Source of the DNA: a virus
Strand: one strand, 5' to 3'
IMG/VR virus record: IMGVR_UViG_3300044982_000040
Span: 1-38,503 of that record
DNA length: 38,503 nt
Part shown: positions 70 to 38,503 of the stretch, in pieces
Numbering within the stretch: position 1 is the stretch's first letter
How the letters are laid out: every line of letters starts with the position of its first letter
Notes under the pieces: generated by a model
What the model saw: the letters and a program-made list of their open reading frames with translations, nothing else
What the model was told of the DNA's origin: nothing
The model's database searches: none
Program-made: the position numbers and the translations under genes

Positions 70-756
70 ATGCAGCAACCTACCAACGGCCACTCCGGCC
101 ACGCCAGTGACAAAGTCATCACCCCCCGGACAGACAGCCGCACCCCGCGTGTCGTCGGCTGGCTGGCACTGTCGGGCGTCTCCCTCATCGCCGGGATCGC
201 GTCGTACTTCCACGCCCTCGCCGTCGTCCAGGCCGCGGGCGCGACGCCGCCGGTGTCATACCTTGTCCCCGCCCTGGCGGATCTCGTCATCCTCGGGGCG
301 TCAGCAGACCTGCTCGCCGCATCCCGCGCCGGGCACGGCCGGCCCCGGCTGACCATGGTGGCGCTGGGTGTCGGCATCGTGGTCACCCTCGCCATGAACG
401 TGGCCGCCGGATGGCACCACGGGCCCGGAGGACGCCTGGTAGCGGGGTGGCCAGCCCTGGCGTTCACCCTGGCGCTGGAGTCCCTGGCGGGGCTCGTCCG
501 GCGCGGCCGGGGCGGTGTGAGCGTGCCTCCTGTCCCGGCCGCGCCGGACAGCCCTGCCGGATGTGGTCACGGGGTGTCGGAAACCCGCGAGGAACGCATC
601 GTCGACGCCTTCCTGCACCTGCGTGACTGCCTCGGTGCCGAGCCGTCGTTCCGGGACCTCGGGCGGGCGTTCGGCATCCATCACGACACGGCTGGCCAGC
701 TGGTCAAGGCGGCACTGAACGGGAGCGCGCCGGAGGGTGTGCACGCTGATGCCTGA
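70..756 (+). CDS. DUF2637-like membrane protein with C-terminal helical domain
   Basis: The 228-residue product has four hydrophobic segments at about residues 28-48, 62-82, 97-113 and 122-141, then a Pro/Gly linker and a soluble C-terminal domain (about 170-215) that looks like a helix-turn-helix. This layout matches the DUF2637 proteins of Streptomyces plasmids and integrative conjugative elements, where they sit just before the FtsK-like transfer gene and are thought to help plasmid spread. The next gene is exactly such a translocase and overlaps this one by 8 bp. The start is supported by GGAAGGG 8 bases upstream. Role inferred from family and context, not shown. Confidence 0.75.
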   Translation: MQQPTNGHSGHASDKVITPRTDSRTPRVVGWLALSGVSLIAGIASYFHALAVVQAAGATPPVSYLVPALADLVILGASADLLAASRAGHGRPRLTMVALGVGIVVTLAMNVAAGWHHGPGGRLVAGWPALAFTLALESLAGLVRRGRGGVSVPPVPAAPDSPAGCGHGVSETREERIVDAFLHLRDCLGAEPSFRDLGRAFGIHHDTAGQLVKAALNGSAPEGVHADA

Positions 757-2872
757 CGGCACCAGCCTGCCAGCCGTGGCCACCGGTGACGAGGTAGTCG
801 AAGGCGTGGTCGTCGACGAGACACCGCGCCCGGCGCCGCTGCGCGTCGTCCACGCCGTAGTGGTCGTCGTCCGCCACGAGCACACCAAGACGGCGGGGCG
901 CCACCTCGGCTACATCGGCGCGGGCGTGGCGATCGCCGCGCGGCGCGTGTGGGACGAGCGGACCACCGCCCGCTACGGGCGGATGCTGCGCGCAGCCGAG
1001 CTGACCGGCAACCACGAGGCGGCGCTCGACTGGGACGAGCGGCAGGCTGAGTTCCGCCGCGACCGGCACCAGCGGCGGATGGACTTCCTCGAGTTCCCGC
1101 TCAAGGTGCTGATCATGCTGCCGAAACTGGCGCTCGGCATGTTCGCGATCCTGGCCGGGCTCGGCGTCCTGCTCGGCATCGCCACCGGCCACGCCGCCGA
1201 GATCGCCGCGCCCATCAGGGCGGTCGCCGACGTCATCCTGTGGACGTGGATCGCGGTATCGGTCACGTGGGAGCTGGTCATCGCCCTGGCGGTGATGCTC
1301 GGGCTGGCCGCGCTGTGGCACACCGGGCGCACCTCAGGCAGCGCGCTGCCGTGGATGCGGACCTCCGCCGACCCCGATTCCGACGTGACGATCGACGAGC
1401 GGACGATCACCCAGGCGCTCGACGCGATGCGCATCCCGCAGATCCGCGACTACATCAAGCAGGGACTGCCGCTCCAGTTCCTGACCCCGTGCCGGCAGGA
1501 AGGCCGCGGCACCTACGCCGAGATCAGGCTGCCGAAGGGCGTCACGGCCGAGAAGATCGCCCGCCGCCGCGCCGACTTCGCCGCGGGCCTGTACCGGCTG
1601 CCGAAAGAGGTGTGGCCGTCGACGGGCAGCGAGGCGGCGATGCTCAAGGTGTGGATCGCCGACAAGGGCGCGCTCGAGGAAGGAGCCGGGCCGTACCCGC
1701 TGCTCGACGACGGGTACGCGGACTTCTTCCGGCCGGTGCCGTTCGGCCGGACGCTGCGCGGTGACCCGATCGGCGCGCCGCTGGCCGAGCGGAACACCAT
1801 CGCCGGCGGGATGCCCGGTCAGGGCAAGTCCTCGGCCGCCCGGATCATCATGGCGGGGGCCGCGCTCGACCCGACCGCCGAGCTGCGCATCTGGGTTCCC
1901 GACACCAACTTCGACTTCGAGGCATTCAAGCCGCGGTGCTCCCGCTACGTCATGGGCGCCGAGGACGAGTTCATCGAGCAGATCCGCGACGACCTGCTTG
2001 AGCTGCGCGCCGAAGTGCAGACACGCGGACAGCTCCTGATCGACCACGAGGTGCCCGCGGTCACCCGCGAGCTGGCCAGCGCCGGGGTCGGGCTGCATCC
2101 GCTGGTGTGCCTGCTCGAAGAGGCGCACGTGGCGATCACCCACCCGAAATACGGCAAGGAGATCTCACAGCTCCTAATCGACATCGTGAAACTGGGCCGC
2201 AAGCGCGGCATCCACCTGATCGTGTCCACCCAGGCACCGACCAAGGACAGCATGCCCCGCGACGTGACCCGGAACTGCTCCAACGGAATCGCGTTCGCGG
2301 TCGGCGACCACGTAGCCAATGACGCGCTGCTCGGCCAGGGCGCGTACGCCGCCGGCCACCGCGCCACGGAGCTGATCCCCGGCACCGACCGCGGAACGTG
2401 CCTGGTCAAGGGGTTCAGCGGGGAGCGGTCGGAGATGGTGCAGGCGTATTTCCTGTCGGCGGACAAGGGCAGCGGCAATGACCAGGTGACGCCGATCATC
2501 GACCGGTCGCTCGCCGAGCTGGCGCGCCGCGGCCGCGCGGTGCCCGGCACGGACACGGTGCGCCGCGCGATCGAGACGCGCGACCTGCTCGCCGATCTCG
2601 GCGAGGTGCTCGGCTCCGAGCGCGTCAAGCTGGCCGACCTGCCCGCGCTGCTGCGTGACCACGCGCCGGGGTGGGGCCCGTACCGGAACATGACGCGGCT
2701 CCAGCTGCGTGACCAGCTTGAGGACAAGGGCGTGCGGGTGACGAATACCGGCAACGTGATGCGCCTGGACCCGGCCGACCTGCGTGCGGTGCTGGCGCGC
2801 CGGGAGAGTGAGTTACATGGGTGTCATCTTGCGGATATGTGCTCTGGGGATGTTTCCGGAGGGTGCTGTTAA
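749..2872 (+). CDS. FtsK/SpoIIIE-like DNA translocase (TraB type)
   Basis: A 707-residue protein with an N-terminal soluble part, two membrane helices (roughly residues 118-150 and 165-195) and a cytoplasmic motor domain. Walker A GGMPGQGKSS lies near residue 353 and Walker B LVCLLEEAH near 452, followed by the STQAP sensor-like segment of the FtsK family. In actinobacterial plasmids and AICEs such single proteins pump double-stranded DNA between mycelial compartments. ATG 749 is preferred over GTG 737 because GGAGGG at 732-737 is the ribosome site for 749 and would overlap the GTG. The last 20 residues (Cys-rich) look like an unconserved extension. An alternative role in segregation of phage or plasmid DNA is possible. 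Confidence 0.85.
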   Translation: MPDGTSLPAVATGDEVVEGVVVDETPRPAPLRVVHAVVVVVRHEHTKTAGRHLGYIGAGVAIAARRVWDERTTARYGRMLRAAELTGNHEAALDWDERQAEFRRDRHQRRMDFLEFPLKVLIMLPKLALGMFAILAGLGVLLGIATGHAAEIAAPIRAVADVILWTWIAVSVTWELVIALAVMLGLAALWHTGRTSGSALPWMRTSADPDSDVTIDERTITQALDAMRIPQIRDYIKQGLPLQFLTPCRQEGRGTYAEIRLPKGVTAEKIARRRADFAAGLYRLPKEVWPSTGSEAAMLKVWIADKGALEEGAGPYPLLDDGYADFFRPVPFGRTLRGDPIGAPLAERNTIAGGMPGQGKSSAARIIMAGAALDPTAELRIWVPDTNFDFEAFKPRCSRYVMGAEDEFIEQIRDDLLELRAEVQTRGQLLIDHEVPAVTRELASAGVGLHPLVCLLEEAHVAITHPKYGKEISQLLIDIVKLGRKRGIHLIVSTQAPTKDSMPRDVTRNCSNGIAFAVGDHVANDALLGQGAYAAGHRATELIPGTDRGTCLVKGFSGERSEMVQAYFLSADKGSGNDQVTPIIDRSLAELARRGRAVPGTDTVRRAIETRDLLADLGEVLGSERVKLADLPALLRDHAPGWGPYRNMTRLQLRDQLEDKGVRVTNTGNVMRLDPADLRAVLARRESELHGCHLADMCSGDVSGGCC

Positions 2873-2975
2873 CTACCGGGAATCCGTTAACTCTGGTCAT
2901 TTCCGCAGGTCAGCGGGGATTACGCGGGTGGCGCGGCTGAGTGAACGAGTTAACTCGGTTAAGGCGCCGCGATGA
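2817..2975 (+). CDS. possible small protein overlapping the translocase end
   Basis: A 52-residue frame starts at ATG 2817 behind GGGAGAG and ends in TGA that overlaps the ATG of the next gene (ATGA, 2972-2975), the coupling style used elsewhere in the window. It overlaps the last 56 bp of the translocase gene and runs through the three GTTAACT repeats, each read as Val-Asn in this frame. No recognised domain. It may be a real coupled small gene, or only an open frame across a regulatory segment. Confidence 0.35.
   Translation: MGVILRICALGMFPEGAVNYRESVNSGHFRRSAGITRVARLSERVNSVKAPR
2868..2955 (+). repeat. three GTTAACT direct repeats
   Basis: The heptamer GTTAACT occurs perfectly at 2868-2874, 2886-2892 and 2949-2955, with a partial GTTAAG at 2958. 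GTTAAC is palindromic and unusual in DNA this rich in G+C. The first two are 18 bp apart. They sit between the translocase stop and the next small genes, where an operator for a regulator of the downstream genes would be expected. Confidence 0.6.
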
Positions 2976-3349
2976 ACTTCGTCGAGCGGCTGATCGACCG
3001 CAAGATCCGCAAGCCGGCGCGCGCCGCTGTCCGCCGCGCCGTGACCCGCTGGTGCCCTGAGTGCCAGAAGCAGGCCGAGCTGTTCCACACCTGCGAGATC
3101 AAGACGGACTTCCGGTCACGGCGCCGGACAGCTGAGCGGCGCACGAGGACCGTGCAGCGCCGGCAGTCCGCGCGGGACGCGGCCGGACGGCGGAAGGAGC
3201 GGCTGAACGAGCGCCGGAAGCTGACCGCCGCCGATCGCCGCGCCGGCCGGGCGCACCCCTACCAGGAGTGCACCGACCGGGGGTGCCGGCGTCCGCAGTG
3301 CCTCGCCTACAAGGAGGGCATCGCGAACTGCCCGCTGGAGCACATATAG
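2972..3349 (+). CDS. hypothetical basic Cys-containing protein
   Basis: The 125-residue product is very rich in Arg and Lys. It has an N-terminal CPECQ...C pair (about residues 28-40) and a C-terminal cysteine cluster (CTDRGCRRPQC...C), which together could bind zinc, separated by a long basic helical stretch. This suggests a nucleic-acid-binding protein, but I recognise no family. It starts at ATG 2972 overlapping the TGA of the preceding small frame and precedes a small membrane protein on the same strand, so it belongs to the transfer module. Confidence 0.6.
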   Translation: MNFVERLIDRKIRKPARAAVRRAVTRWCPECQKQAELFHTCEIKTDFRSRRRTAERRTRTVQRRQSARDAAGRRKERLNERRKLTAADRRAGRAHPYQECTDRGCRRPQCLAYKEGIANCPLEHI

Positions 3350-3358
3350 GAGGGAACC

Positions 3359-3556
3359 ATGCTCGCTGCCGCCGTCATCGCCCTGGCGGCCGTCGTCGTC
3401 TACTACGTCTCGCTGCAGGTGCACCCGTACACCTACTGCCGCCGCTGCCAGGGCGGCGGCCGGAACGCCGGGTCGAGCCGGAAACGCTGGGGTCACTGCA
3501 AGCTGTGCGGCGGATCGGGCCGCAAGGAACGGTTCGGCACACGGTTCCTGCGCTAG
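3359..3556 (+). CDS. membrane-anchored protein with two DnaJ-type zinc motifs
   Basis: The 65-residue product has one N-terminal membrane helix (about residues 2-20) followed by two motifs of the DnaJ cysteine-rich type, CRRCQGGG and CKLCGGSG, enough to bind one zinc. A strong AGGAGGG ribosome site precedes the ATG. Small proteins like this occur beside FtsK-like genes in actinobacterial mobile elements. The TAG stop (3554-3556) interlocks with the stop of the convergent endolysin gene in one CTAG. Function unknown; a redox or chaperone-like membrane partner is an inference. Confidence 0.7.
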   Translation: MLAAAVIALAAVVVYYVSLQVHPYTYCRRCQGGGRNAGSSRKRWGHCKLCGGSGRKERFGTRFLR

Positions 3557-4392
3557 ACGCCGAGCAGCGCGCCCCAGGTGACGGGCCCGACGATCCAGTC
3601 GACGGTCACCTTCGCCGCCGCCTGGACGTCACGGACCGCCGCCTCGGTGACCGGCCCGAACGACCCGTCGACAGGCACGGCATGGCCGCGTGCACCGCAC
3701 AGGCCTTGCACGGTCCGCACAGCGTTCGCGTTGGCCGATCCGGTGGTGATCTGGGGTAGCTCGTTCACTAGCTTCTCCGTCCAGTTAGCAGCCGGTGCGG
3801 GCGCCGGGGCGGCGACCGAGCCGAGCCACGCCGTCAGCTCCTCGGGGGTGCCGTTGAAAGCGTCGCAGTCGACACCGCCGGGACTGCCCCACTGCCAGAA
3901 TGTCCACCGGTCCCACGGCGCGACGCTCTCCGGCGCGGTACCGGAGGGCCATGCGGCCCACAGCGGGTAGCCGGTGCAGCTCGTCAGCGCGGCCAGCGTC
4001 GACAGGTCGCTATAGACCAGCACCTTGCAGCCAGGGCAGGCGGCGGCCACGATGTCGCACCACGCCTTGACCTCTGCCCCGGTGACGCCGCCGTAGTCGC
4101 TGGCGACGACGGCGAGCATGTCGCCCCGCTCGAGGCCCGCGGCTTTTACGGTCGCCAGGAAGTGCGCGGCCTGCGATGCGACCGGCGCCGACCCGGCCGA
4201 CCACAGCTCGTGGTAGGCGCCGCGATGGATGCCCTTGGCCTTGATTGTCGCCCAGTTGGCCGTGAAGTGCGGGTCGGTAACCCCCGGGCCCTCCGTGGCC
4301 TTGGTGAAGCTGAATGCCAGCCCGTCGAGGTCGGCGCTGGTCACGGGGGCCTGATAGCTGCTGAAGTCTTTTCCCTGGGCGCTGGTGCCCAT
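3553..4392 (-). CDS. GH25-type endolysin with peptidoglycan-binding domain
   Basis: The 279-residue protein has a glycoside hydrolase 25 (lysozyme) domain at residues 5-190: DFSSYQ at 9-14 carries the first acidic residue, KATEG follows at 31-35, and FWQWG appears near 165-169. An Ala/Pro linker (194-202) leads to a PG_binding_1-like domain (about 205-279). It would cut the glycan strands of the host wall at lysis. The usual DxE catalytic pair after the third strand is not seen: the matching stretch reads MLAVVASDYGG (92-102), with no Glu. Start ATG 4392 has GGAGCGAG upstream. It is the last gene of the virion operon, after the holin candidate. Confidence 0.85.
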   Translation of the reverse strand: MGTSAQGKDFSSYQAPVTSADLDGLAFSFTKATEGPGVTDPHFTANWATIKAKGIHRGAYHELWSAGSAPVASQAAHFLATVKAAGLERGDMLAVVASDYGGVTGAEVKAWCDIVAAACPGCKVLVYSDLSTLAALTSCTGYPLWAAWPSGTAPESVAPWDRWTFWQWGSPGGVDCDAFNGTPEELTAWLGSVAAPAPAPAANWTEKLVNELPQITTGSANANAVRTVQGLCGARGHAVPVDGSFGPVTEAAVRDVQAAAKVTVDWIVGPVTWGALLGV

Positions 4393-21654: not shown

Positions 21655-22785
21655 CTAACCCGCCGGGGGCGCCAGTACCACGACCGGGGACACCGCCGCC
21701 CCGGCCTCCGTCGTCGACTGGCTCTGAATCCAGTACCGGCCGTCGACCCGGGAGCGGATCCGGAAGTTGCTGGTGTCCTTGATGAACCCGGCACCGTCCT
21801 TCGACTGCTCGACGGTCATCGTCAGCCGGTCACTGATCACGTACTGGGACAGATCCGCGAGCATCACGTCGCCGGTGCTGCCGAGCGCAGGCTGATGGTC
21901 GGTGATGCTCGCGGGCAGCCCCAGGCCCGACGGGCCGATGTCGTGGCCGTCGCCGAACTGAAACCACTCCGATGTCGTGGCCGGCGTGATGTCGGTGCCC
22001 GCAGTCGACCCGCCGGTGTTCAGGTACAGCTCCAGCAGCTGGGGAAGCGCCGCCGACGAGATCAGCCACCGGACATGAGTCAGCCCCGGCGTCAGACCTG
22101 CCTGCAGCGCCGCCGGATGCAGCCCTGTCAGCATCGCCGCAATGTCCGCCACCAGCACCTTGTCCGAGGTTCCCCGGTTCACGGCCAGCGCCGCACCGCC
22201 GTTGGCCAGTGACTGCGGCTCCCCGGCACCGGTGCCGTTGAAAATGAACAGGTCATCCTCGAACCATGCCAAGCCCAGCGCGATGACCCGGGCGAGCAGG
22301 TCGCCCATCGCGCCGGCCGCGTCGTCGGTCAGCTCGTTCGGGACGCCCTGCAGGTAGGCGGCGATCTTCCGGGCCTCCAGCACCAGGCGGCCGAGTGCCG
22401 GGTTCGTCGCCGGGATCGTCTCCCCGACCTCGACGATGGAGAACGTGAGACCGCCGAGCGCCTGCTTGCCTGACGCCTGCGACGGGTTGTCCAGCAGCGG
22501 GATGCCCAGGCGAGGGCTGTCCATCTCCACCACCGTCGCCCGCGGGCGCACGATCGCGGTGGTCATGTAGGCCATCACCTGAGCGCGCAGCGTCTCCGGC
22601 ACGAGGAAGCCGCCCTCGCTGGGCACCCGCTCGGACCAGGTGTTCCGGATGACCCTCCTGGCCTCGCCCGCCGGGTTGAAGACGGCCTTCAGGTACGTCG
22701 CCCACGACTTCGCCCACGGCTGGTCGTCCAGCCGCGCGCCCGGGGCGTCTGGCCGGTAACCCGGCAGGTCGCGGAGGTTTATCAT
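21655..22785 (-). CDS. second HK97-type major capsid protein
   Basis: The 376-residue product has the HK97-fold layout (N-arm, then IVRPRATVVEMDSPRLGIPLLDN, GETIPATNPALGRLVLEARKIAAYLQGVPNELTDDAAGAMGDLL, FIFNGTG.GEPQ..., and a C-terminal VISDRLTMTVEQSKDG...RIRSRVDGRYW). It has only about 45 residues before the capsid core, so it lacks a scaffold domain. Residues 51-67 are identical to residues 186-202 of the other capsid protein, and the DNA is identical over 48 bp. Whether both proteins enter one shell is unknown. Confidence 0.85.
   Translation of the reverse strand: MINLRDLPGYRPDAPGARLDDQPWAKSWATYLKAVFNPAGEARRVIRNTWSERVPSEGGFLVPETLRAQVMAYMTTAIVRPRATVVEMDSPRLGIPLLDNPSQASGKQALGGLTFSIVEVGETIPATNPALGRLVLEARKIAAYLQGVPNELTDDAAGAMGDLLARVIALGLAWFEDDLFIFNGTGAGEPQSLANGGAALAVNRGTSDKVLVADIAAMLTGLHPAALQAGLTPGLTHVRWLISSAALPQLLELYLNTGGSTAGTDITPATTSEWFQFGDGHDIGPSGLGLPASITDHQPALGSTGDVMLADLSQYVISDRLTMTVEQSKDGAGFIKDTSNFRIRSRVDGRYWIQSQSTTEAGAAVSPVVVLAPPAG
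22589..22636 (-). repeat. 48-bp perfect repeat shared by the two capsid genes (copy 1)
   Basis: These 48 bp are identical to 23995-24042 in the other capsid gene. They code for the SERVPSEGGFLVPETLR segment. The genes around it are far more diverged, so the identity points to recent gene conversion or strong selection at DNA level. Confidence 0.95.
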
Positions 22786-23069: not shown

Positions 23070-24596
23070 TTACGTCTGCTGGCCGAGCTTGACGATCATG
23101 GACAGGGTGCTAGGTGATCCGTTGGCCGGAGTGAGCGCGCTGCGCTGCCAGCCGCGGCCGTCCAGCCGCTGGGTGATGCGGTAGGACACCTCGTCGTTCG
23201 CGAAGCTGTACTCCGCTGAAGAGGCGACCTGCATCGCCTGCCTATCCCCGATGAGATAGCCCGTCGGGTCGTACAAGGCCAGGGCGCCGTCCGGCTGAGC
23301 GCCGGCGGACGCATCCGGGTAAGGCAGCTTCTCCGACACGCGGCCGGGGATGCCGAGCATCTTGAAGGTCATTCCGTCGGTCTGCAGGTTGGCGGGCATC
23401 TCGATCGCCTGCATGCCGCCGAGCATGGCGGGCGGCGCGATCGCCGTGCTGCCGACGATCAGCCCCATGCCCAGCAGCTGGCCGAACGCATCCGGGCTGC
23501 ACACCCAGCGAGCCCGCTTCAGCGACGGCGGCCACAGCCGCACCAGCATCGCGATAACGTCCGTCAGCGCGATCTTCCCGGCCGTCGTCGCGGGTACGGT
23601 GACAGCGCCGGGGCAGCTCAGCAGGCCCTCCGGCTCGTCGATGCCGGTGCCCATCAGGAACGCGTAGTCCTCGAAGAACGAGACAGCCTGCGGGAAGAAC
23701 GTGTTGAACCACACGTCCATCGGCGAGACCGAGTCCTGCAGCAGCTCGTTCGGGATCTGCGTGAAGGCGGTCAGCTTCGATGCCTGGAGCACGACCCGGC
23801 CGAACTTCGGCGCGGTGATGGTCAGCGCCGCACCCTCAGCCGTCCACTCGGCCGCCACGCCGCCGAACACGGTCGAGGTGTGCGACGTGTCGTCGATCGA
23901 CGGGAGCGGCACCCGCAGCGAGTCCATCGGGATGACGGTAGCCTCGGGACGCATCACCGCGTCCTCAAGCACCAGCGCCAGGATCTCGGACCTGAGCGTC
24001 TCCGGCACGAGGAAGCCGCCCTCGCTGGGCACCCGCTCGGACATGCCCGCGTTGCGGATCTCCAGCGTCTTCGCCAGGCTGCTCTTCAGGCCAAGCAGCT
24101 TCTCGGCCAGCTCGCTGTCGCCGTCCCGGGCCGCGACGTGCTGGCCCTTGATCGTCGCCCACACGAACTTCCTCAGGTCGCTGGCGTACTCCGAGTTGTC
24201 GATGTCGTCGGAGGCACCGAGCGCCCGCTCGGCGAACAGGCCCTGCTTGTCGAACAGGTCCGAGGCGTTCCGCACCCTCGAGCGCGCAACCGCCCGCTGA
24301 CGACGCGGGCTACGCCGGCCCTGCAGCAGGTCCAGCGCCATGCCGGGCCGGAAACCATCCCGCGGCACCGCGCCGTTCCGCTGCGCCTGATCCTGGAAAA
24401 ACTCCTGGATACCCAGCTGCGCCTGCTCCTGCAGCTGCGCCTGCATCTGCGGGCCGTACTTGCTCGCGGCCCACTTCTCCGCATAGTTCCGCACCAGGCC
24501 GGCGACGCCGCCATCCTCCACGGCGGCGCTCAGCCGCGCGGGATCGTGGAACAGCTCCTCCAGCTCGTCGCCGGTCTCCGGCATCACCGCTGTCAC
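23070..24596 (-). CDS. HK97-type major capsid protein with N-terminal scaffold domain
   Basis: The 508-residue protein has a helical, Gln/Glu-rich N-terminal region (residues 1-185; LQEQAQLGIQEFFQDQAQ) like the delta or scaffold domain of HK97-type capsids, which is normally cleaved by the head protease encoded just upstream. The capsid core follows: SEGGFLVPETLRSEIL, RVPLPSIDDTSHTSTVFGGVAAEWTAEGA, FGRVVLQASKLTAFTQIPNELLQDS, and a C-terminal LIGDRQAMQVASSAEYSFANDEVSYRITQRLDGRGW. GTG 24596 has GGGAG 9 bases upstream. It is the likely main shell protein. Confidence 0.9.
   Translation of the reverse strand: MTAVMPETGDELEELFHDPARLSAAVEDGGVAGLVRNYAEKWAASKYGPQMQAQLQEQAQLGIQEFFQDQAQRNGAVPRDGFRPGMALDLLQGRRSPRRQRAVARSRVRNASDLFDKQGLFAERALGASDDIDNSEYASDLRKFVWATIKGQHVAARDGDSELAEKLLGLKSSLAKTLEIRNAGMSERVPSEGGFLVPETLRSEILALVLEDAVMRPEATVIPMDSLRVPLPSIDDTSHTSTVFGGVAAEWTAEGAALTITAPKFGRVVLQASKLTAFTQIPNELLQDSVSPMDVWFNTFFPQAVSFFEDYAFLMGTGIDEPEGLLSCPGAVTVPATTAGKIALTDVIAMLVRLWPPSLKRARWVCSPDAFGQLLGMGLIVGSTAIAPPAMLGGMQAIEMPANLQTDGMTFKMLGIPGRVSEKLPYPDASAGAQPDGALALYDPTGYLIGDRQAMQVASSAEYSFANDEVSYRITQRLDGRGWQRSALTPANGSPSTLSMIVKLGQQT
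23995..24042 (-). repeat. 48-bp perfect repeat shared by the two capsid genes (copy 2)
   Basis: Identical to 22589-22636. It lies at the junction between the scaffold domain and the capsid core of the longer capsid protein. Confidence 0.95.
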
Positions 24597-28099: not shown

Positions 28100-29623
28100 A
28101 TGGCGGCGCGCAAGCTACTCGGCCGGACCGAGCCACGGCTGTTCACCCCGCCGCTGCGCCCCCTCAGCCGCCGCACCAGCCGCGGATACGAGGCCGCCGA
28201 GTTCGCCGACATCATCGGCGAGCCGTTCCTGCCCTGGCAGCGCTGGCTCGCCATCCACGCCCTCGAACTCAACCCCGACATCACCTACCGGTTCCGCGTC
28301 GTCATCGTCCTCGTCGCCCGCCAGAACGGGAAATCGACATGCAAGCGGACCATCAGCCTCTGGCGGCTCTACGTCGACGGCGCGAAACTCATCCTCGGCG
28401 TCGCCCAGGACGTATCCCTGGCCCGCGAGCAGTGGCAGATGTCCCTCGACACCATCGAGTCAAGCCGCGAGCTGTCCCCCGAACTCGCCAAGGTACGCCG
28501 CGTCAACGGCGACGAATGGTTCCGCGTCGCCGAAGACCGCGACATCACCGCCGACGACGACGAAGACGAGTGGTACGACGTCGCCGCCGGCGGCCGGTAC
28601 AAGATCGCCGCCTCCAACCGCAAGGCAGGCCGCGGCCTGTCCATCGACGAGCTCAACATCGACGAGCTCCGCGAGCAGCGCAACTGGCAGGCCTGGTCAG
28701 CCCTGTCCAAGACCACCATGGCCCGGCTGCACGCCCAGATCTGGGCCATGTCCAACGCCGGAGACGACCAGAGTGTCGTCCTCAACCAGCTCCGCGACGC
28801 GGCACTATCTGGCCGCGACCCCAGCATCGGCCTGTTCGAGTGGTCCGCCGAAGACGACTGCCCCATCGACGACTGGACCCAGATCCGCCAGGCAAACCCC
28901 GGCCTCGGCTACACCGTCTCCGCCGCCGCCATCCGCACCGCACTCGTCACCGACCCCCCCGCCGTCTTCCGCACCGAAGTCCTCTGCCAGAAAGTCGACC
29001 AGCTCGACGGCGCACTCTCCTACAGCGCCTGGAAAGACGGCGCCGACCCAGCCAGCAGCATCCGCGACACCCCGGCGCTCCGCAAACGCGCCGCCGCAGT
29101 TGTCGACGCGGCCCCCGACGGGGAGCACGTCACCCTCGCCGTAGCCGCCAGGCAGCCAGACGGACGCCCCCGCGTCGAGATCGCCGCCGCATGGGACTCA
29201 GCCGAAGCAGCACGCCCCGAGCTCGCCGCCACCCTCGCCCGCATGAAACCCTGCGTCATCGGCTGGTACCCCACCGGCCCGGGCGCCGCGTTCGCCACCA
29301 TCATGCGCTCCTTCGACCAGGCCGTCACCATCGACCAGGCCGAGCCCGGCCGGCCGCACATCACCGAGCTCACCGGCAACCGCGTCAACGAGGTATGCCA
29401 GGAACTCGCCGATCTCGTGCGCGGCCGCCAGGTCGTCCACCCCGGCGATCCGCTCCTCGACGCTCACGTGCGCGGCGCAGGCAAGCTCTCCAGCGGTGAC
29501 GGCTGGCGGTTCACCCGCAAGGGCGGCGGCCACGTCGACGCCGCCTACGCCGCCGCCGGGGCCGTCAGCCTCGCCCTGCAGCTGCCCGAGCCGCGCCGGC
29601 CGCGCATCCGCATCCTCGCCTAG
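28100..29623 (+). CDS. terL: terminase large subunit
   Basis: The 507-residue packaging motor has an ATPase domain with the Walker A variant VARQNGKST (residues 72-80), a Walker B-like LSIDELNID near 180-188 and coupling segment IWAMSNAGDDQS, then a RNase-H-like nuclease domain (VVDAAPDGEHVTLAVAA near 333, GGGHVDAAYAAAGA near 473-486). It cuts and pumps phage DNA into the head. It is the only long plus-strand gene in the virion part, divergent from the portal and convergent with the small terminase candidate; the two stops interlock in CTAG 29620-29623. Confidence 0.93.
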   Translation: MAARKLLGRTEPRLFTPPLRPLSRRTSRGYEAAEFADIIGEPFLPWQRWLAIHALELNPDITYRFRVVIVLVARQNGKSTCKRTISLWRLYVDGAKLILGVAQDVSLAREQWQMSLDTIESSRELSPELAKVRRVNGDEWFRVAEDRDITADDDEDEWYDVAAGGRYKIAASNRKAGRGLSIDELNIDELREQRNWQAWSALSKTTMARLHAQIWAMSNAGDDQSVVLNQLRDAALSGRDPSIGLFEWSAEDDCPIDDWTQIRQANPGLGYTVSAAAIRTALVTDPPAVFRTEVLCQKVDQLDGALSYSAWKDGADPASSIRDTPALRKRAAAVVDAAPDGEHVTLAVAARQPDGRPRVEIAAAWDSAEAARPELAATLARMKPCVIGWYPTGPGAAFATIMRSFDQAVTIDQAEPGRPHITELTGNRVNEVCQELADLVRGRQVVHPGDPLLDAHVRGAGKLSSGDGWRFTRKGGGHVDAAYAAAGAVSLALQLPEPRRPRIRILA

Positions 29624-30169: not shown

Positions 30170-30463
30170 TCACCATGCCGTCCTGTCGAGCGGTGCGGGG
30201 TCTGTCGGCCCGCGACCGCGGGCAGCGTTGCCTTGCAGTGCGGTGACGTGCTTGTGGCAGGGTGCGCAGGCGGCACGGAGCTTGGTGTGTCCTGGGTCGT
30301 TGGCGAGCTGGTCGATGTGGTCGACCTGGGTGGCGGCGCCGATGCAGATGCCGGGGATGCGGATCTCGCAGCGCCAGTTGGCGCTGCGCATGGCGTCGTT
30401 GCGTGCGCGTCGCCATGCGGCCTGGTTGTAGGCGGGGTTTTTCTTCGCGGTTTCCCAGCCCAT
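30170..30463 (-). CDS. HNH endonuclease
   Basis: The 97-residue product carries a compact HNH fold: Cys32 and Cys40, the TQVDHID motif with His49, and CAPCHKHVT with Cys66, Cys69 and His70. A very strong AAGGAGG ribosome site precedes the ATG. HNH proteins next to terminase are required for packaging of several cos phages, where they work with the large subunit. It may instead be a small homing nuclease. Confidence 0.85.
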   Translation of the reverse strand: MGWETAKKNPAYNQAAWRRARNDAMRSANWRCEIRIPGICIGAATQVDHIDQLANDPGHTKLRAACAPCHKHVTALQGNAARGRGPTDPAPLDRTAW

Positions 30464-33228: not shown

Positions 33229-34287
33229 TCAGCCCTCCCTGGCTGCGAGATCGCGCGATGCTCGCCAGAGGTCGCGCAGGATTTCCTTGGCGACAGCCCG
33301 GAGCGCGCGGGCGTGCCTGTGGCCGTCTGAGAGCGGTGTTCCGGGCAGTGCGGGATGGTTCTTCGGTCCGCAGCGGACGCATTCCTTTATGTGAATGGCG
33401 TCCTTGTAGCGGTCGCGGGCGGCGTCGTAAATGGCGCGGTAGGGGCTGTCGCGGATTTTCATGCAGGATTCGGCGACGAGGAATGCACGCATCTTGGCGG
33501 TGGCGTTCCAGTTGGCTTTCTGGCCGCGCTTGCGGACCTGGGTGGCTGCGTCGCCGTAGCCGCAGTAGGACCACAGGTCGGAGACGCGGCGGGGCTGGTC
33601 TGCGGCGGTGTTCCAATAGGGGTCGCCGATGGCGGCGAGGAGGCGGGCGCCTTGCTTCTCGCCGATGCCCTTGACGCCCTTGATCCACGGGTTGAGGGGG
33701 TGGGTGCGCATGTGGCGTCCGAGGGTGAGTTCGGCTTTGTGCTCGGCGTCGGCGAGCATGGCGACGAGGGCGGCGAGGCGGGCGACGTCGGGGTGTGTCT
33801 CGTCGAGGCCGAATCCGTCGTCGTCGTGGCTGGTGAGGGTTCGGAGCCGGTTCTCGTTGGCGATGCGGACGTGCTCGAGGTCGTCGAGGATGTCTGCGGC
33901 GAACGCGAGCCACGCATCGTGCTCCGCCAGCTCAGGCGGTACGGCTATGGGGATCGATGCTCCCGTGGGCTGAGCTGGCGGATCTTGCTCCCCGGCGGCG
34001 CAGGTGGTTTGGGCACCGCTCGAAGTGTGGCCGCCGGGGAAGTCATCAGCCGCAGCGGATCCAGCATGGGGATCGCTCACAGCGTGGCTGCGGCTGGTCT
34101 TGCTCCCCGCAGGCGCTTGCAGCCTGGGTGTCGACTCAAGATTGGCCTGCGGGGAATTCTTGCCCTCAGCGGCGTGCCCTTTCTGGGTGCCGAAATTGCC
34201 CTGGCCGCTGAGGGGGTCTGACCCGGACGGCGGAGCTGCCATGGTTGCCGGGGCGCACTTGGCCGTCCGGGGGTCTGCGAGGGTCAC
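33229..34287 (-). CDS. IS110-related protein without nuclease domain; hairpin array in its 5' part
   Basis: From GTG 34287 (GTGA overlap with the preceding stop) the frame gives 352 residues. Residues about 119-352 resemble the coiled-coil and C-terminal Transposase_20 part of IS110 recombinases: long helices, helix-hairpin-helix VKGIGEKQGARLLAAIGDP (about 200-220), SDLWSYCGYGDAATQVRKRGQKANW (about 235-260), basic C-terminal helices with a CVRC pair. The N-terminal DEDD (RuvC-like) domain is absent and the S-S-G expected after the GYG turn reads AAT. Residues 1-118 are disordered and coincide with the six-hairpin array, so they may not be selected as protein. Likely an RNA-binding, not transposing, relative. 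Confidence 0.75.
   Translation of the reverse strand: MTLADPRTAKCAPATMAAPPSGSDPLSGQGNFGTQKGHAAEGKNSPQANLESTPRLQAPAGSKTSRSHAVSDPHAGSAAADDFPGGHTSSGAQTTCAAGEQDPPAQPTGASIPIAVPPELAEHDAWLAFAADILDDLEHVRIANENRLRTLTSHDDDGFGLDETHPDVARLAALVAMLADAEHKAELTLGRHMRTHPLNPWIKGVKGIGEKQGARLLAAIGDPYWNTAADQPRRVSDLWSYCGYGDAATQVRKRGQKANWNATAKMRAFLVAESCMKIRDSPYRAIYDAARDRYKDAIHIKECVRCGPKNHPALPGTPLSDGHRHARALRAVAKEILRDLWRASRDLAAREG
33923..33982 (-). repeat. array unit 1 (last on the minus strand, longest arms)
   Basis: Arms TCCGCCAGCTCAG and CTGAGCTGGCGGA, loop 33936-33969 (34 nt: two extra bases on each side). Minus-strand loop parts: CGGGAGCAT, core CGATCCCCA, TAGCCGTAC. The unit next to the protein domain is the one with the longest stem. 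Confidence 0.92.
33989..34040 (-). repeat. array unit 2
   Basis: Arms TCCCCGGCGGC and GCCGCCGGGGA, loop 34000-34029. Minus-strand loop parts: CACTTCGAG, core CGGTGCCCA, AACCACCTG. Confidence 0.95.
34047..34096 (-). repeat. array unit 3
   Basis: Arms CAGCCGCAGC and GCTGCGGCTG, loop 34057-34086. Minus-strand loop parts: CGCTGTGAG, core CGATCCCCA, TGCTGGATC. Confidence 0.95.
34104..34155 (-). repeat. array unit 4
   Basis: Arms TCCCCGCAGGC and GCCTGCGGGGA, loop 34115-34144. Minus-strand loop parts: ATCTTGAGT, core CGACACCCA, GGCTGCAAG. Confidence 0.95.
34163..34214 (-). repeat. array unit 5
   Basis: Arms CCCTCAGCGGC and GCCGCTGAGGG, loop 34174-34203. Minus-strand loop parts: GGGCAATTT, core CGGCACCCA, GAAAGGGCA. 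Confidence 0.95.
34222..34271 (-). repeat. array unit 6 (first on the minus strand)
   Basis: Arms CCCGGACGGC and GCCGTCCGGG, loop 34232-34261. Minus-strand loop parts: first variable segment AGTGCGCCC, core CGGCAACCA, second variable segment TGGCAGCTC. Confidence 0.95.
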
Positions 34288-34811: not shown

Positions 34812-35111
34812 TCAGTCCTCCTCGGGTGGTTTCGGCGGAGGCCAGCGCCCCCACAGCTGATAGATGCGCTCGTCGCCGAGCTTGCAGCACACCGGGCTCT
34901 GCTTGGCCAGCTCCCGCCTGCGGGCACCCGGCGACCGCGCCCACGCCGGCAGCAGCGTGGCGGCGAAGATCCGCCCCAGGTCCAGGCTCGCGCCCTTCCC
35001 GTTGCAGCCCACCAGCGACGCCGGTGCCCAGTGACGGGCACACCACGGGCTGCCTTTCGGCGCGTCCGGCGGGCCGGTGAACTGGTCGAAGAACTCCGTC
35101 GCGGTGCTCAT
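34812..35111 (-). CDS. hypothetical Cys-containing protein, 99 residues
   Basis: Product MSTATEFFDQFTGPPDAPKGSPWCARHWAPASLVGCNGKGASLDLGRIFAATLLPAWA... with cysteines at PWCARHW, GCNGKG and PVCC, and a Pro-rich acidic end. ATG 35111 overlaps the TGA that would end the methyltransferase in its shifted frame (ATGA), which supports this start. An open frame joining it to the methyltransferase in one protein is not credible. Function unknown. Confidence 0.6.
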   Translation of the reverse strand: MSTATEFFDQFTGPPDAPKGSPWCARHWAPASLVGCNGKGASLDLGRIFAATLLPAWARSPGARRRELAKQSPVCCKLGDERIYQLWGRWPPPKPPEED

Positions 35112-35945
35112 GCGGACTCCATCTCGCTGAACAGGCCCGGCTGCATGGGCTTGGCCAGCCGGACGCGGGTGAGTGCCAGGGCTACCGGTGGGGCCGGTTC
35201 CGCAGAACGGATCGAGGACCGTGCCGCCGGGCGGTGTCACGAGCCGGACGAGCCAGCGCATCAGCTCAACGGGCTTGACGGTCGGCCACGCCGTGCCATC
35301 CTCAAGGCGGGGCCGCTCGGATGCCGAGGCCTTCGCCTGGTAGCGGAAGGCCGGGAAGAATCGGCTTGCGCCTCCGGTATCGCCGTAAGAGTCGAAGTCG
35401 CGTACCCGGGCAACCTTGTCGCCCATGATCCCGGCACGGTTCCCCGACTGCTGGTGTATGCCGTGCGCGGAACCGCCCGCCGGGCGGACGCCGCTCTGCC
35501 GGTCCAGCTCGGCTACCGGGCATGAATCGGAACACGACCACGCCTCGACGGTCTCCATGCCGTCCGCGTCGGCGTAGCCGCTGTCGCGGTCCTGGTCGCG
35601 CATCCCGTAATCGCTCTTTGTGGTGCGCCCCCCGCCGCGCCGGGATCCTTGCGTGATCCCCCGCACTTTCCGCGTCCCGGTCATCTCGCATTCGGGGGTG
35701 TGGCTCAGCAGGATGTTCGCCGGCCAGCGGCAGTCACCGAAGGTCGCGCCCGCGATGTACGCCTCGGGTGTCCGCGTGAGCGACCTCCCCTCGGCGGGAT
35801 TGGTCCGTGCGCCGGACGGCCTGAACGTGTCCCACTCGCGGCCCATGAACTCAAGCCCGTACGGCGGATCACAGACGACCGAATCCACGCTCGCGTCCGG
35901 CAGCGGCAGGTGCGCGGCGTCCCCGCGCAGGATGACCACGCTCAT
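35108..35945 (-). CDS. DNA methyltransferase, probably frameshifted near the C-terminus
   Basis: From ATG 35945 the product reads MSVVILRGDAAHLPLPDASVDSVVCDPPYGLEFMGREWD, with DPPY motif IV near residue 26-29, a target-recognition region with several cysteines, then WPTVKPVELMRWLVRLVTPPGGTVLDPFCGTG (motif I, FCGTG) near the end. This is the order of N4-cytosine/N6-adenine methyltransferases of the beta type. After FCGTG the frame loses sense, while the +1 frame gives VALALTRVRLAKPMQPGLFSEMESA and ends at 35108 in ATGA with the next gene. One extra base, perhaps in CCCC near 35193, would explain it. The enzyme probably modifies phage DNA against host restriction. Confidence 0.75.
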
Positions 35946-36940: not shown

Positions 36941-37035
36941 CAGAACGGCTCCACTTCGCCGGGCTCGATCGCCTGCGCCGACCATTCGGCCTGCTGGCGG
37001 TCGTAGGCGGCCGTGCGGGCGAGTTCCTTGGTCAT
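36940..37035 (-). CDS. 31-residue protein
   Basis: ATG 37035 overlaps the preceding stop (ATGA), and the TGA overlaps the next ATG (TGATG). The peptide MTKELARTAAYDRQQAEWSAQAIEPGEVEPF is amphipathic and acidic at the end. The double coupling supports translation; function unknown. Confidence 0.5.
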   Translation of the reverse strand: MTKELARTAAYDRQQAEWSAQAIEPGEVEPF

Positions 37036-37364
37036 GTGCTGCTCCTGGTGGTGAGTCCGGCGCGGGTGCGCCATTTCGCGATCTGCACCTGGCCGACACG
37101 GGCGGTGTGGCCGGATCCGGAGGGCCCGAAGTGGCCGAGGATGTCGGCGATGACGGCCTGGAGGTCCTCGCAGTGGCGGTTGGCGTAGTCGAGCTGGAGG
37201 GCGAGATCACCGCGTTCGGCGTCGTCGGCCTTGATGACGGCCTCGGCGCAAGCGTCCAGCGCGTTCTGCGCTACCGGGTCGAGTGCTTCCCACGGCTCGG
37301 TGGGCATGCCGATGGCGGCGGCGTACGCCTCGTAGCCGGCCTGCGCCGGTGACTTCCCGGTCAC
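37032..37364 (-). CDS. hypothetical protein, 110 residues
   Basis: GTG 37364 overlaps the preceding stop (GTGA). The product (MTGKSPAQAGYEAYAAAIGMPTEPWEALDPVAQNALDACAEAVIKADDAERGDLALQLDYANRHCEDLQAVIADILGHFGPSG...) has a helical GYEAY...W..L....Q.ALDA segment common in small actinophage proteins, then a coiled coil and a basic tail. Function unknown. The same frame is open further upstream, but there it overlaps the neighbouring gene. Confidence 0.6.
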   Translation of the reverse strand: MTGKSPAQAGYEAYAAAIGMPTEPWEALDPVAQNALDACAEAVIKADDAERGDLALQLDYANRHCEDLQAVIADILGHFGPSGSGHTARVGQVQIAKWRTRAGLTTRSST

Positions 37365-37597
37365 AGGTCCGCCTCTTCGATTCCGGCGGCCTCGAGCGCG
37401 TCGGCGGCGATCTTGCGGATCTCGGGCCGCCCGAACGGCTCGTCTGGGTTGTCGGCGGCATCGAGGATGTCGAACAGCGCCCGGCGCGTGATGCCGAGCG
37501 CCCGCTTCACCGGATCGGGCACCAGGGCGCCGTCTTCGCGGACGGAAAGCCACGCGCCGGCCGGGTATGCGGCCAACCCGATGAGGGCTTCGTTCAC
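37361..37597 (-). CDS. hypothetical protein; main part of a probably frameshifted gene
   Basis: From GTG 37597 the product is VNEALIGLAAYPAGAWLSVREDGALVPDPVKRALGITRRALFDILDAADNPDEP..., 78 residues. The likely true start is ATG 37700, coupled to the preceding stop (ATGA), which encodes MTKTIIVVESNGRERHYAADEWTPGDNLGLLIA in the -1 frame; skipping one base near 37604 joins the two into LLIA-TVNEALIGLAAYPAGAW, a natural continuation. So the gene is probably 37361-37700 with a frameshift or a base error. Function unknown. Confidence 0.5.
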   Translation of the reverse strand: MNEALIGLAAYPAGAWLSVREDGALVPDPVKRALGITRRALFDILDAADNPDEPFGRPEIRKIAADALEAAGIEEADL

Positions 37598-37696
37598 TGT
37601 TCGCGATGAGGAGTCCCAAGTTGTCGCCTGGTGTCCACTCGTCAGCGGCGTAGTGCCGCTCCCTGCCGTTGCTCTCAACGACGATGATGGTCTTGG

Positions 37697-38032
37697 TCAT
37701 GAATTGCTCCCTACGATTTCGTCGATGTGCTCGCGCTCAGGTCGTTTATCGGTCGCGCCGGGCATTTCGTGGTGGCCGCATTCGCTGTTGTCCCATTCGT
37801 AGACGACGACGTGGCACGTCGGGCAGCGGCGGTGCTGGGCGAGCTGCTTGCGGCGGCTGGGGTGGCACTGGGTGCAGCGGGCGGGCTGGCCGCCGGGTGC
37901 GCCGATGAGGCGGCTGCGGCGGTCGCAGATGCCGCACCAGGGCGGCTTGCCGTCGGCGGCGAGTTCGGCGGCATACGGGCATTCCGATTCGATGTGGCCT
38001 TTCTCGCCGCAGCCGTAGCATGTCGCGGGCAT
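37697..38032 (-). CDS. multi-zinc-motif protein with CCHC zinc knuckle
   Basis: The 111-residue product starts MPATCYGCGEKGHIESECP, a perfect zinc knuckle (CX2CX4HX4C), followed by CGICDRRSRLIG, CTQCHPSRRKQL and CPTCHVVVYEWDNSECGHH, so it can bind three or more zincs. It is the first gene of the long early operon. Zinc knuckles bind single-stranded nucleic acids, and the CX2C ribbons suggest a nucleic-acid role. Start at ATG 38032 is preferred to the upstream open frame because the knuckle begins there. Confidence 0.7.
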   Translation of the reverse strand: MPATCYGCGEKGHIESECPYAAELAADGKPPWCGICDRRSRLIGAPGGQPARCTQCHPSRRKQLAQHRRCPTCHVVVYEWDNSECGHHEMPGATDKRPEREHIDEIVGSNS

Positions 38033-38177: not shown

Positions 38178-38194
38178 TAACTGCCTCTGCCTCT

Positions 38195-38245
38195 GCTTGA
38201 TTTTTGCTTGGCGTTTGCTTGAGCAAGTGCTTGAGCGTTTGCTAG
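38195..38245 (+). repeat. helically phased GCTTG repeats, cluster 1
   Basis: GCTTG or GCTAG starts at 38195, 38206, 38217, 38229 and 38241, spaced 11-12 bp, with flanking similarity (TTTGCTTGAGC). Equal spacing near one helical turn is typical of iterons bound by a replication initiator on one DNA face. Confidence 0.7.
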
Positions 38246-38299
38246 ACCCAGATCCCTGTGACCTGCGGCGATCTGTTTTCGGGAGGTCTCAGGGTGCCC

Positions 38300-38308
38300 T
38301 GTGGATAA
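38300..38308 (-). promoter_or_regulatory. DnaA box
   Basis: TTATCCACA on the minus strand is a perfect match to the consensus DnaA box. It lies between the two GCTTG repeat clusters and beside a 40-bp dyad, as expected in a replication origin. Confidence 0.6.
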
Positions 38309-38320
38309 CGCGAAGTATGT

Positions 38321-38360
38321 GACCGTGTGTTAGTGTGGTCGACCACCCTAGAACACGGTC
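38321..38360. promoter_or_regulatory. 40-bp imperfect dyad with GTGGTCGACCAC centre
   Basis: A 12-bp perfect palindrome GTGGTCGACCAC (38335-38346) lies inside outer arms GACCGTGT (38321-38328) and ACACGGTC (38353-38360). The two 20-bp halves match at about 17 positions. It may be an operator, a partition site or part of the origin. Confidence 0.7.
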
Positions 38361-38391
38361 GTTTGTGCCATCCCGTGACCTTGTGCGTCCG

Positions 38392-38463
38392 CAAGCACTT
38401 GCTAAGCACTTGCTTGACCGCTTGCCTGAGCACCTGCTTGAGCATTTGCTTTCCGTTTGCTTC
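38392..38463 (+). repeat. helically phased GCTTG repeats, cluster 2
   Basis: GCTTG-like pentamers start at 38401, 38412, 38424, 38435, 38448 and 38459 (11-13 bp apart), continuing the motif of cluster 1. Most of the cluster also codes for the end of the partial minus-strand gene, where it is read as an Ala/Gln/Ser/Gly tail. Confidence 0.65.
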
Positions 38464-38503
38464 CCCCCTTGCGGCCAGCCTCGGCGCGCTTCAGCGACAG
38501 CTC
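38402..38503 (-). CDS. C-terminal end of a minus-strand gene (partial)
   Basis: The frame entering from the right end reads ELSLKRAEAGRKGG, then a basic SKRKANAQ stretch and an Ala/Gln/Ser/Gly-rich tail, ending at TAG 38404-38402. The AGRKGG basic motif suggests a DNA-binding or helicase-like C-terminus. Its tail is encoded by the phased repeats. The rest lies outside the window. Confidence 0.5.
   Translation of the reverse strand, partial: ELSLKRAEAGRKGGSKRKANAQAGAQASGQASA

Follow-up and report, generated by a model that had tools for sequence, protein, structure and literature searches.

A plasmid-type DNA transfer module with a putative clt-like repeat array in temperate actinophages

Why should a tailed phage carry, next to its endolysin gene, genes that resemble the DNA transfer apparatus of AICEs and Streptomyces plasmids? 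The question is raised by a 38,503-bp linear IMG/VR virus record (IMGVR_UViG_3300044982_000040), the whole of which is here called the window. The window is a phage of soil actinobacteria. The remainder of the record encodes tail proteins, a tape measure, two capsid-type proteins, a protease, a portal and TerL, which together with the endolysin identify a tailed, siphophage-like member of the Caudoviricetes. It is not an AICE, i.e. virion genes predominate and no Rep or Prim-Pol was found in the 38.5 kb. A DNA-level search against cultured phages returned nothing beyond a 3% tail-gene match. The features of the window that are relevant here are the following:

70-756, plus strand: membrane protein of 228 aa with a DUF2637 domain, encoded by the first module gene (PF10935, E=3.2e-6; three hydrophobic segments)
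749-2872, plus strand: FtsK/TraB-like DNA translocase, 707 aa (membrane segments at the N terminus, then a RecA-like motor and a predicted winged helix at the C terminus)
2558-2869, plus strand: translocase C-terminal domain, with a predicted winged-helix fold (AlphaFold pLDDT 81, H-H-H-E-E order)
2810-2965, plus strand: putative array of clt-like repeats that overlaps the translocase gene at its 3' end (sequence-model match)
2972-3349, plus strand: small basic Cys-containing protein, 125 aa (GC3 0.93)
3359-3556, plus strand: small membrane-anchored DnaJ-type zinc-ribbon protein, 65 aa (hydropathy, weak DnaJ Zn-finger match)
3553-4392, minus strand: GH25 endolysin with a PG-binding domain (PF01183, 5e-21; PF01471, 2.5e-8)
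38190-38470, no strand assigned: iteron-like TTGCTTGAGC repeats, at the opposite end of the window from the module

The transfer module consists of the DUF2637 gene, the translocase gene and the two small genes, all on the plus strand and all at the positions given by the first-pass annotation. The description of the module as convergent with the endolysin and without a gap is also correct, since the last plus-strand gene and the endolysin gene share 4 bp (3553-3556). The endolysin closes the convergent late operon and is thus a neighbour of the module, not a part of it. The DUF2637 assignment holds as well (27.6 bits against a Pfam cut-off of 22.8). Of 21 related phage records, 13 have the domain, 9 of them above the cut-off, and it went undetected in the other 8; the copy in G024 is 79% identical to that of the window, and cultured phages gave no match. 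As to the small genes, both show coding-type GC3. The product of 2972-3349 has no family match in Pfam or NCBIfam, and that of 3359-3556 combines a transmembrane segment with a CxxCxGxG..CxxCxGxG layout. Proteins resembling the latter are encoded downstream of the array in five phage records (G012, G014, G015, G017 and G018) and in one AICE (L011). No known Spd or Rep genes were found alongside the module.

The translocase was likewise recognized as FtsK/TraB-like in the first-pass annotation, and a match to phrog_1358 (phage FtsK/SpoIIIE-like, E=2.2e-24) bears this out. The Walker A (GGMPGQGKS) and Walker B (CLLEEAH) regions of the RecA motor are intact and strongly conserved in an alignment of 11 homologues, hydrophobic segments are present at residues 116-150 and 152-194, and a profile search against structures gave a weak match to the FtsK motor 2iuu (E=5e-4). 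An alternative GTG start at position 737 would give a protein of 711 aa. The score against the Pfam FtsK model was under the cut-off, and the match to the NCBIfam plasmid TraB model NF041214 was weak (E=3.7e-8, 32.3 bits against a cut-off of 800). As the AICE homologue L007 also falls under this cut-off (25.2 bits), NF041214 covers another TraB subfamily. A structure search with the C-terminal domain gave mostly generic winged-helix matches, none significant by itself, and neither FtsK gamma nor TraB structures were matched significantly by the model. FtsK gamma was absent among the matches listed, which we do not count as evidence against the assignment.

Homologues of the translocase with 51-66% identity were found in 21 other IMG/VR phage records and in 9 isolate genomes. 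The closest relatives in isolate genomes (57-63% identity) are located in elements that carry Prim-Pol, AAA_25 and a tyrosine integrase, some of them beside gyrA. This is the anatomy of AICEs, i.e. an integrase, a replication module (RepSA, RepAM or Prim-Pol) and Tra (PMC3218068). Searches of 50,697 cultured-phage records gave no close homologue and one distant Geobacillus phage motor (26%), and plasmids gave matches of 24-33% only.

Directly behind the translocase gene, and overlapping its 3' end, lies a repeat array. When 23 other loci, with the window left out, were used to build a sequence model, this found the array once in the window (2810-2965, 27.5 bits, E=5.6e-8). The array contains GTTAAC at 2868, 2886 and 2949, GTTAA at 2958, a core TTTCCGCAGGTCAG at 2900-2913 and a palindrome CGAGTTAACTCG at about 2946-2957. 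GTTAAC occurs three times in the 38.5 kb and all three copies are within the array; the probability of such clustering by chance is 1.6e-5. The model recovered the site behind ftsK in the window and in 11 of 11 close held-out loci, and gave no match in six distant FtsK loci or in 80 kb of Actinomadura DNA. To judge from these sequences, a conserved repeat array behind the translocase genes of AICEs and phages is a new observation. The repeat word (TAACTC type) shifts in concert within each genome, i.e. it is GTTAACT in the window and GTAAC, TAATT, GCAAC or TCAC in others, and it is strongly enriched in the arrays (e.g. CTAAC in G018, 7 copies against 0.08 expected). Three phages have the array in the opposite orientation with respect to the gene; this favours a site acting at the DNA level over an mRNA feature. 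An mRNA structure or terminator was rejected on this ground and also because repeats outside the dyad vary. A replication origin of Prim-Pol AICEs is disfavoured, as the array accompanies ftsK even in phages that have no Prim-Pol behind it.

Array and translocase together resemble a clt site that is read by its own translocase. In plasmid pWTY27 the clt comprises 16 bp within traA and 159 bp behind it, and TraA binds its 7-bp repeats (PMC3583192). A candidate reader in the present protein is the C-terminal winged helix, as suggested by the predicted fold, for which the structural matches are not significant, and by covariation with the repeat. Residue 668, at the predicted wing tip, is Gly in the window (codon 2750-2752). 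An alignment and a column test showed that it is Asp in the three TAAT-repeat phages only (G014, G017, G019), and it is the sole residue of the entire protein that is exclusive to them. The TAAC to TAAT switch of the repeat accompanies the change of Gly or Ser to Asp at this residue. The switch occurred twice independently, in G014/G017 as compared with their TAAC-repeat sister G018, and in G019 as compared with its TAAC-repeat sister G013; in other words, the covariation comprises three sequences and two events.

What would such a system do in a phage? We consider it probable that the module is a dsDNA transfer cassette of the AICE and Streptomyces plasmid type, carried and maintained by temperate actinophages, that would move phage DNA between mycelia. 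Anchorage in the hyphal membrane, possibly with formation of a pore, would be provided by the DUF2637 protein together with the helices at the N terminus of the translocase. The winged helix would bind the putative clt array just behind the gene and load the hexameric FtsK-like motor on the phage's own DNA, and the motor would then pump phage DNA, excised or replicating and in double-stranded form, into an adjacent hypha or compartment. Intermycelial transfer by the module is plausible.

The module could also be DNA from outside the phage, i.e. chromosomal or AICE DNA that adjoins a prophage through an assembly or boundary error. Several linear records, the window included, have the module near the contig end. 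The family as a whole contradicts this reading and its probability is close to nil: three phage genomes that contain the module are complete and circular, as shown by 127-bp direct terminal repeats, and in the 38-kb prophage of Actinomadura sp. WMMA1423 the module is enclosed by 34-bp att repeats, which are located at the 3' end of a tmRNA gene. The convergent order with the phage late genes is also found in nearly all records. The earlier claim that plasmid or AICE-type transfer genes belong to a phage is thus upheld, with the matching repeat array conserved, and in this family the module is not a chromosomal neighbour or a separate element. Nor does it look like a functionless piece of an AICE that the phage acquired recently. 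The translocase tree, with four or more phage/AICE label changes, does indicate repeated exchange. Against this stand a deep phage-only clade of 10 that includes the window (support 99/97), dN/dS values of about 0.2-0.4 between phage pairs, which indicate purifying selection, the fixed position convergent to the late genes and the concerted change of array and translocase, and we regard a passenger status as very improbable.

The first-pass annotation went further and saw a true phage-plasmid, replicating extrachromosomally and spreading both by virions and by mycelial transfer. Iteron-like repeats are present at 38.19-38.47 kb, the end where it noted an origin-like region, no integrase was detected in the window, and there is a precedent in pZL12, which has tra genes according to a citation in PMC3583192 and whose phage record, ZL12, has parA/parB. 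Yet this view is unsupported and, in our opinion, improbable. The repeats were found in none of the related phage records, tyrosine integrases or serine recombinases are encoded in 16 of 21 relatives, Pfam searches found no rep or par genes in the 38.5 kb of this truncated record, and ZL12 has no homologue of the window translocase. The absence of an integrase is uninformative, since the window stops 69 bp upstream of the DUF2637 gene and the integrase of the nearest relative lies about 1 kb further upstream. A circle made by joining positions 1 and 38503 was rejected, as the record has no terminal repeat and, in the nearest relative, DUF2637 is preceded by an integrase and regulators. Somewhat different is the suggestion that the module spreads or segregates prophage or replicating phage DNA within one mycelium, across cross-walls or sporulation septa, and not to another. 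Septa are the site of action of FtsK/SpoIIIE motors, Spd proteins are required by Streptomyces plasmids for spread inside the recipient mycelium (PMC12857230), and a membrane protein, a translocase and a cis site would be equally suited to this task. In plasmids and AICEs, however, it is TraB-type proteins with clt sites that carry out transfer between mycelia, and an integrated prophage is already segregated with the host chromosome, so that a site of its own would add little unless the element is excised. We consider a purely internal role unlikely.

The proposed transfer cassette has its nearest counterpart in the transfer modules (TraB/Tra with clt) of AICEs such as the Prim-Pol AICEs of Pseudonocardiales (L006-L013), where the translocase is 57-63% identical, the same array lies directly behind it and another gene directly in front. 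The array supplies a predicted clt for an entire AICE family; for the archetype AICE pSAM2 no clt is described (PMC9513070). AICEs differ in having a module for replication (Prim-Pol, AAA_25 or RepAM) and in lacking virion genes, whereas the window is a siphophage with no plasmid-like part other than the module. The phage gene contains a recognizable DUF2637 domain and its AICE counterpart does not. The Streptomyces plasmid systems pWTY27 TraA/clt and pSVH1 TraB/clt are also similar, with a single FtsK-like translocase bearing TM segments at its N terminus. Their clt, made up of short repeats in direct and inverted orientation, begins inside the tra gene and runs on behind it (PMC3583192). The repeat sequences differ, however (TGACACC in pWTY27), the carriers are plasmids and not phages, and binding is experimental in these systems but predicted for the window array. 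The Streptomyces phage-plasmid pZL12/ZL12 likewise unites virion and transfer genes in one element, but it is 90 kb long with parA/parB, whereas the relatives of the window are integrative prophages. In gene order and late operon the window is like integrative temperate actinophages with a tyrosine or serine integrase, and in many relatives the integrase is just upstream of DUF2637. In the literature searched, mostly outside subscription journals, we found no report of a transfer module in such phages or of a prophage-borne TraB/clt.

Tentatively, and with slightly less than even confidence, we propose an integrative temperate actinophage lineage with two horizontal routes, virions and TraB/clt-type dsDNA transfer, in which translocase and address sequence co-diversify and each phage moves only its own DNA. 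Module-bearing phages may thus have a second, virus-free route of spreading. Should the module be functional, a single integrative element would combine viral spread with spread of the conjugation type, and this in at least 22 phage records and not in one phage-plasmid alone. It would explain how prophages could move through dense mycelia with no need for lysis, and the boundary between AICEs and prophages would be blurred. The natural specificity switches, TAAC to TAAT along with residue 668, make the DNA-recognition rule of the translocase directly testable.

The five genes that the first-pass annotation placed at the left end of the window are real, and the plus-strand set meets the endolysin as described.

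Genes of the module and selected genes of the window
70-756, plus strand, DUF2637 protein, left end
749-2872, plus strand, FtsK/TraB-like translocase (ftsK), left end
2972-3349, plus strand, small gene, left end
3359-3556, plus strand, small gene for a 65-aa membrane zinc-ribbon protein, left end
3553-4392, minus strand, GH25 endolysin, converging on the plus-strand genes with a 4-bp overlap
28100-29623, plus strand, TerL, the remaining late genes being on the minus strand
33229-34080, minus strand, TIGR-Tas type protein, 'transposase' of phrog_4285 (NCBIfam NF052498, E=3e-66)
34812-35945, minus strand, N6/N4 DNA methyltransferase (PF01555), early region

The rest of this linear 38.5 kb IMG/VR virus record is a siphophage genome, i.e. 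tail, tape measure, two HK97-type capsid proteins, protease and portal, all on the minus strand. The tandem minus-strand genes 21655-22785 and 23070-24596 both match phrog_10, the HK97-type major head protein family, and may be two capsid proteins or the product of an MCP duplication. TerL is transcribed divergently from the portal and the other late-operon genes, which is unusual, and a small CxxC/HNH-like gene (30170-30463) lies on the strand opposite to it.

The translocase scores below the family cut-offs of the FtsK and TraB models. No close homologue was found among 50,697 cultured phage records, and plasmid matches reach only 24-33% identity. The nearest kin in isolate genomes (57-63% identity; Pseudonocardiales and other actinomycetes) mostly lie, where examined, in elements that also encode Prim-Pol, AAA_25 and a tyrosine integrase and in some cases are inserted next to gyrA; this is the anatomy of AICEs, actinomycete integrative and conjugative elements (PMC3218068). 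A strong match in 7 of 394 actinomycete genomes surveyed suggests that the subfamily is uncommon. A profile search gave 21 IMG/VR records with a 51-66% identical translocase; DUF2637 was detected in 13 of them, and many have tail, portal, TerL or capsid homologues in common with the window. We found no description of a prophage-borne module of this TraB/clt type in the open-access papers searched.

The first-pass annotation had regarded these transfer genes as phage DNA, and for the family this holds. The module lies in related records G002 (53 kb), G018 (46 kb) and G022 (51 kb), whose identical 127-bp terminal repeats mark them as circular contigs. In the prophage of Actinomadura sp. WMMA1423 an integrase at one end adjoins a 34-bp repeat that forms the tmRNA gene's 3' end; 38.0 kb from there, past DUF2637 and ftsK, the repeat occurs again. 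The module and the late operon are convergent in almost every record. In the translocase tree the window falls within a phage-only clade of 10 (support 99/97), seven further phage copies are interleaved with AICE copies, and at least four phage/AICE label changes are forced; the tree thus indicates that AICEs and phages exchanged the module on more than one occasion and that it was also kept within a phage lineage. Translocase dN/dS in close phage pairs is 0.2-0.4. A stretch of ~38 residues in the early protein at 37032-37700 is 82-84% identical to a G002 protein (52576-52752), the two genomes being far apart outside it.

It was also proposed that the window is a phage-plasmid, which is not supported. 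Recombinases occur in 16 relatives (tyrosine integrases in ten, serine recombinases in six more), rep or par genes were not found in the window, and the iteron-like repeats at its right end occur in none of the relatives. The left edge lies 69 bp upstream of DUF2637; in the nearest relative, G024 (DUF2637 79% identical), a regulator and an integrase follow about 1 kb further upstream. pZL12, the only phage-plasmid known to carry tra genes, has no member of this translocase family.

In the relatives a non-coding array lies immediately 3' of ftsK. In it a 5-7 nt word, mostly CTAACTC or CTAACCC, recurs several times and in both orientations (often 5-9 per 280-nt stretch versus about 0.1 expected), together with a core TTNCGCAGGTCAG and a dyad GAGTTAGAAACCTAACTC. 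When a sequence-only model was derived from 23 loci, the window left out, it matched the window just once, at 2810-2965 (E=5.6e-8), where the word reads GTTAACT; the three copies of GTTAAC in the 38.5 kb all fall inside 87 bp. The model also matches 3' of ftsK in every one of the 11 close loci that were held out (E 1e-7 to 1e-20), inverted relative to ftsK in three of them (L020, L032 and L033, from records G009, G021 and G022), and has no match in six distant FtsK loci or in 80 kb of Actinomadura DNA.

The word varies in concert inside each locus: CTCAC in the AICE L010, and among the phages GTAAC in G012, TAATT in G014 and G017, CTAAT in G019, GCAAC in G020 and GTTAAC in the window. The C-terminus of the translocase is a predicted winged helix (pLDDT 81) with residue 668 (window 2750-2752) at the wing tip. 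Asp668 occurs in exactly the three phages with a TAAT-type word (G014, G017, G019), which come from two lineages; their sisters G018 and G013 have a TAAC word and Gly/Ser. In the full-length alignment this is the sole position with a residue exclusive to these three, and of 264 control triples 13 had a residue exclusive to them anywhere in the C-terminal domain. The simplest reading is that the predicted winged helix reads the array.

The array has the same placement relative to the translocase gene as clt of pWTY27, which takes in the final 16 bp of traA plus the 159 bp that follow and contains 7-bp repeats bound by TraA (PMC3583192). TraB moves unprocessed double-stranded DNA between mycelia together with membrane Spd proteins (PMC12857230). 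From evidence that is computational throughout, we infer that the phage module may act likewise on phage DNA that is excised or replicating: the translocase would pump it as a double strand between mycelia, DUF2637 would take a Spd-like role beside it, and the 65-aa protein, common to other loci, would perhaps also be Spd-like. The main rival to such transfer is that the module acts within one mycelium only. The 65-aa product is tiny and membrane-anchored with a DnaJ-type zinc ribbon; such a protein is also found 3' of the array in phages G012, G014, G015, G017 and G018 and in one AICE, L011, and is a possible new Spd-like partner.

The TIGR-Tas type product also matches PDB 9mty, an IS110-C-terminal-domain protein (E=4e-18). 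Five inverted-repeat pairs at 33989-34271 (10-11 nt arms, 30 nt apart, period about 58 nt) overlap a possible 5' extension of the gene and look like a TIGR guide-RNA array. Relatives of the protein occur in 86 cultured phages, mostly of Mycobacterium, where they are annotated as transposase or hypothetical.
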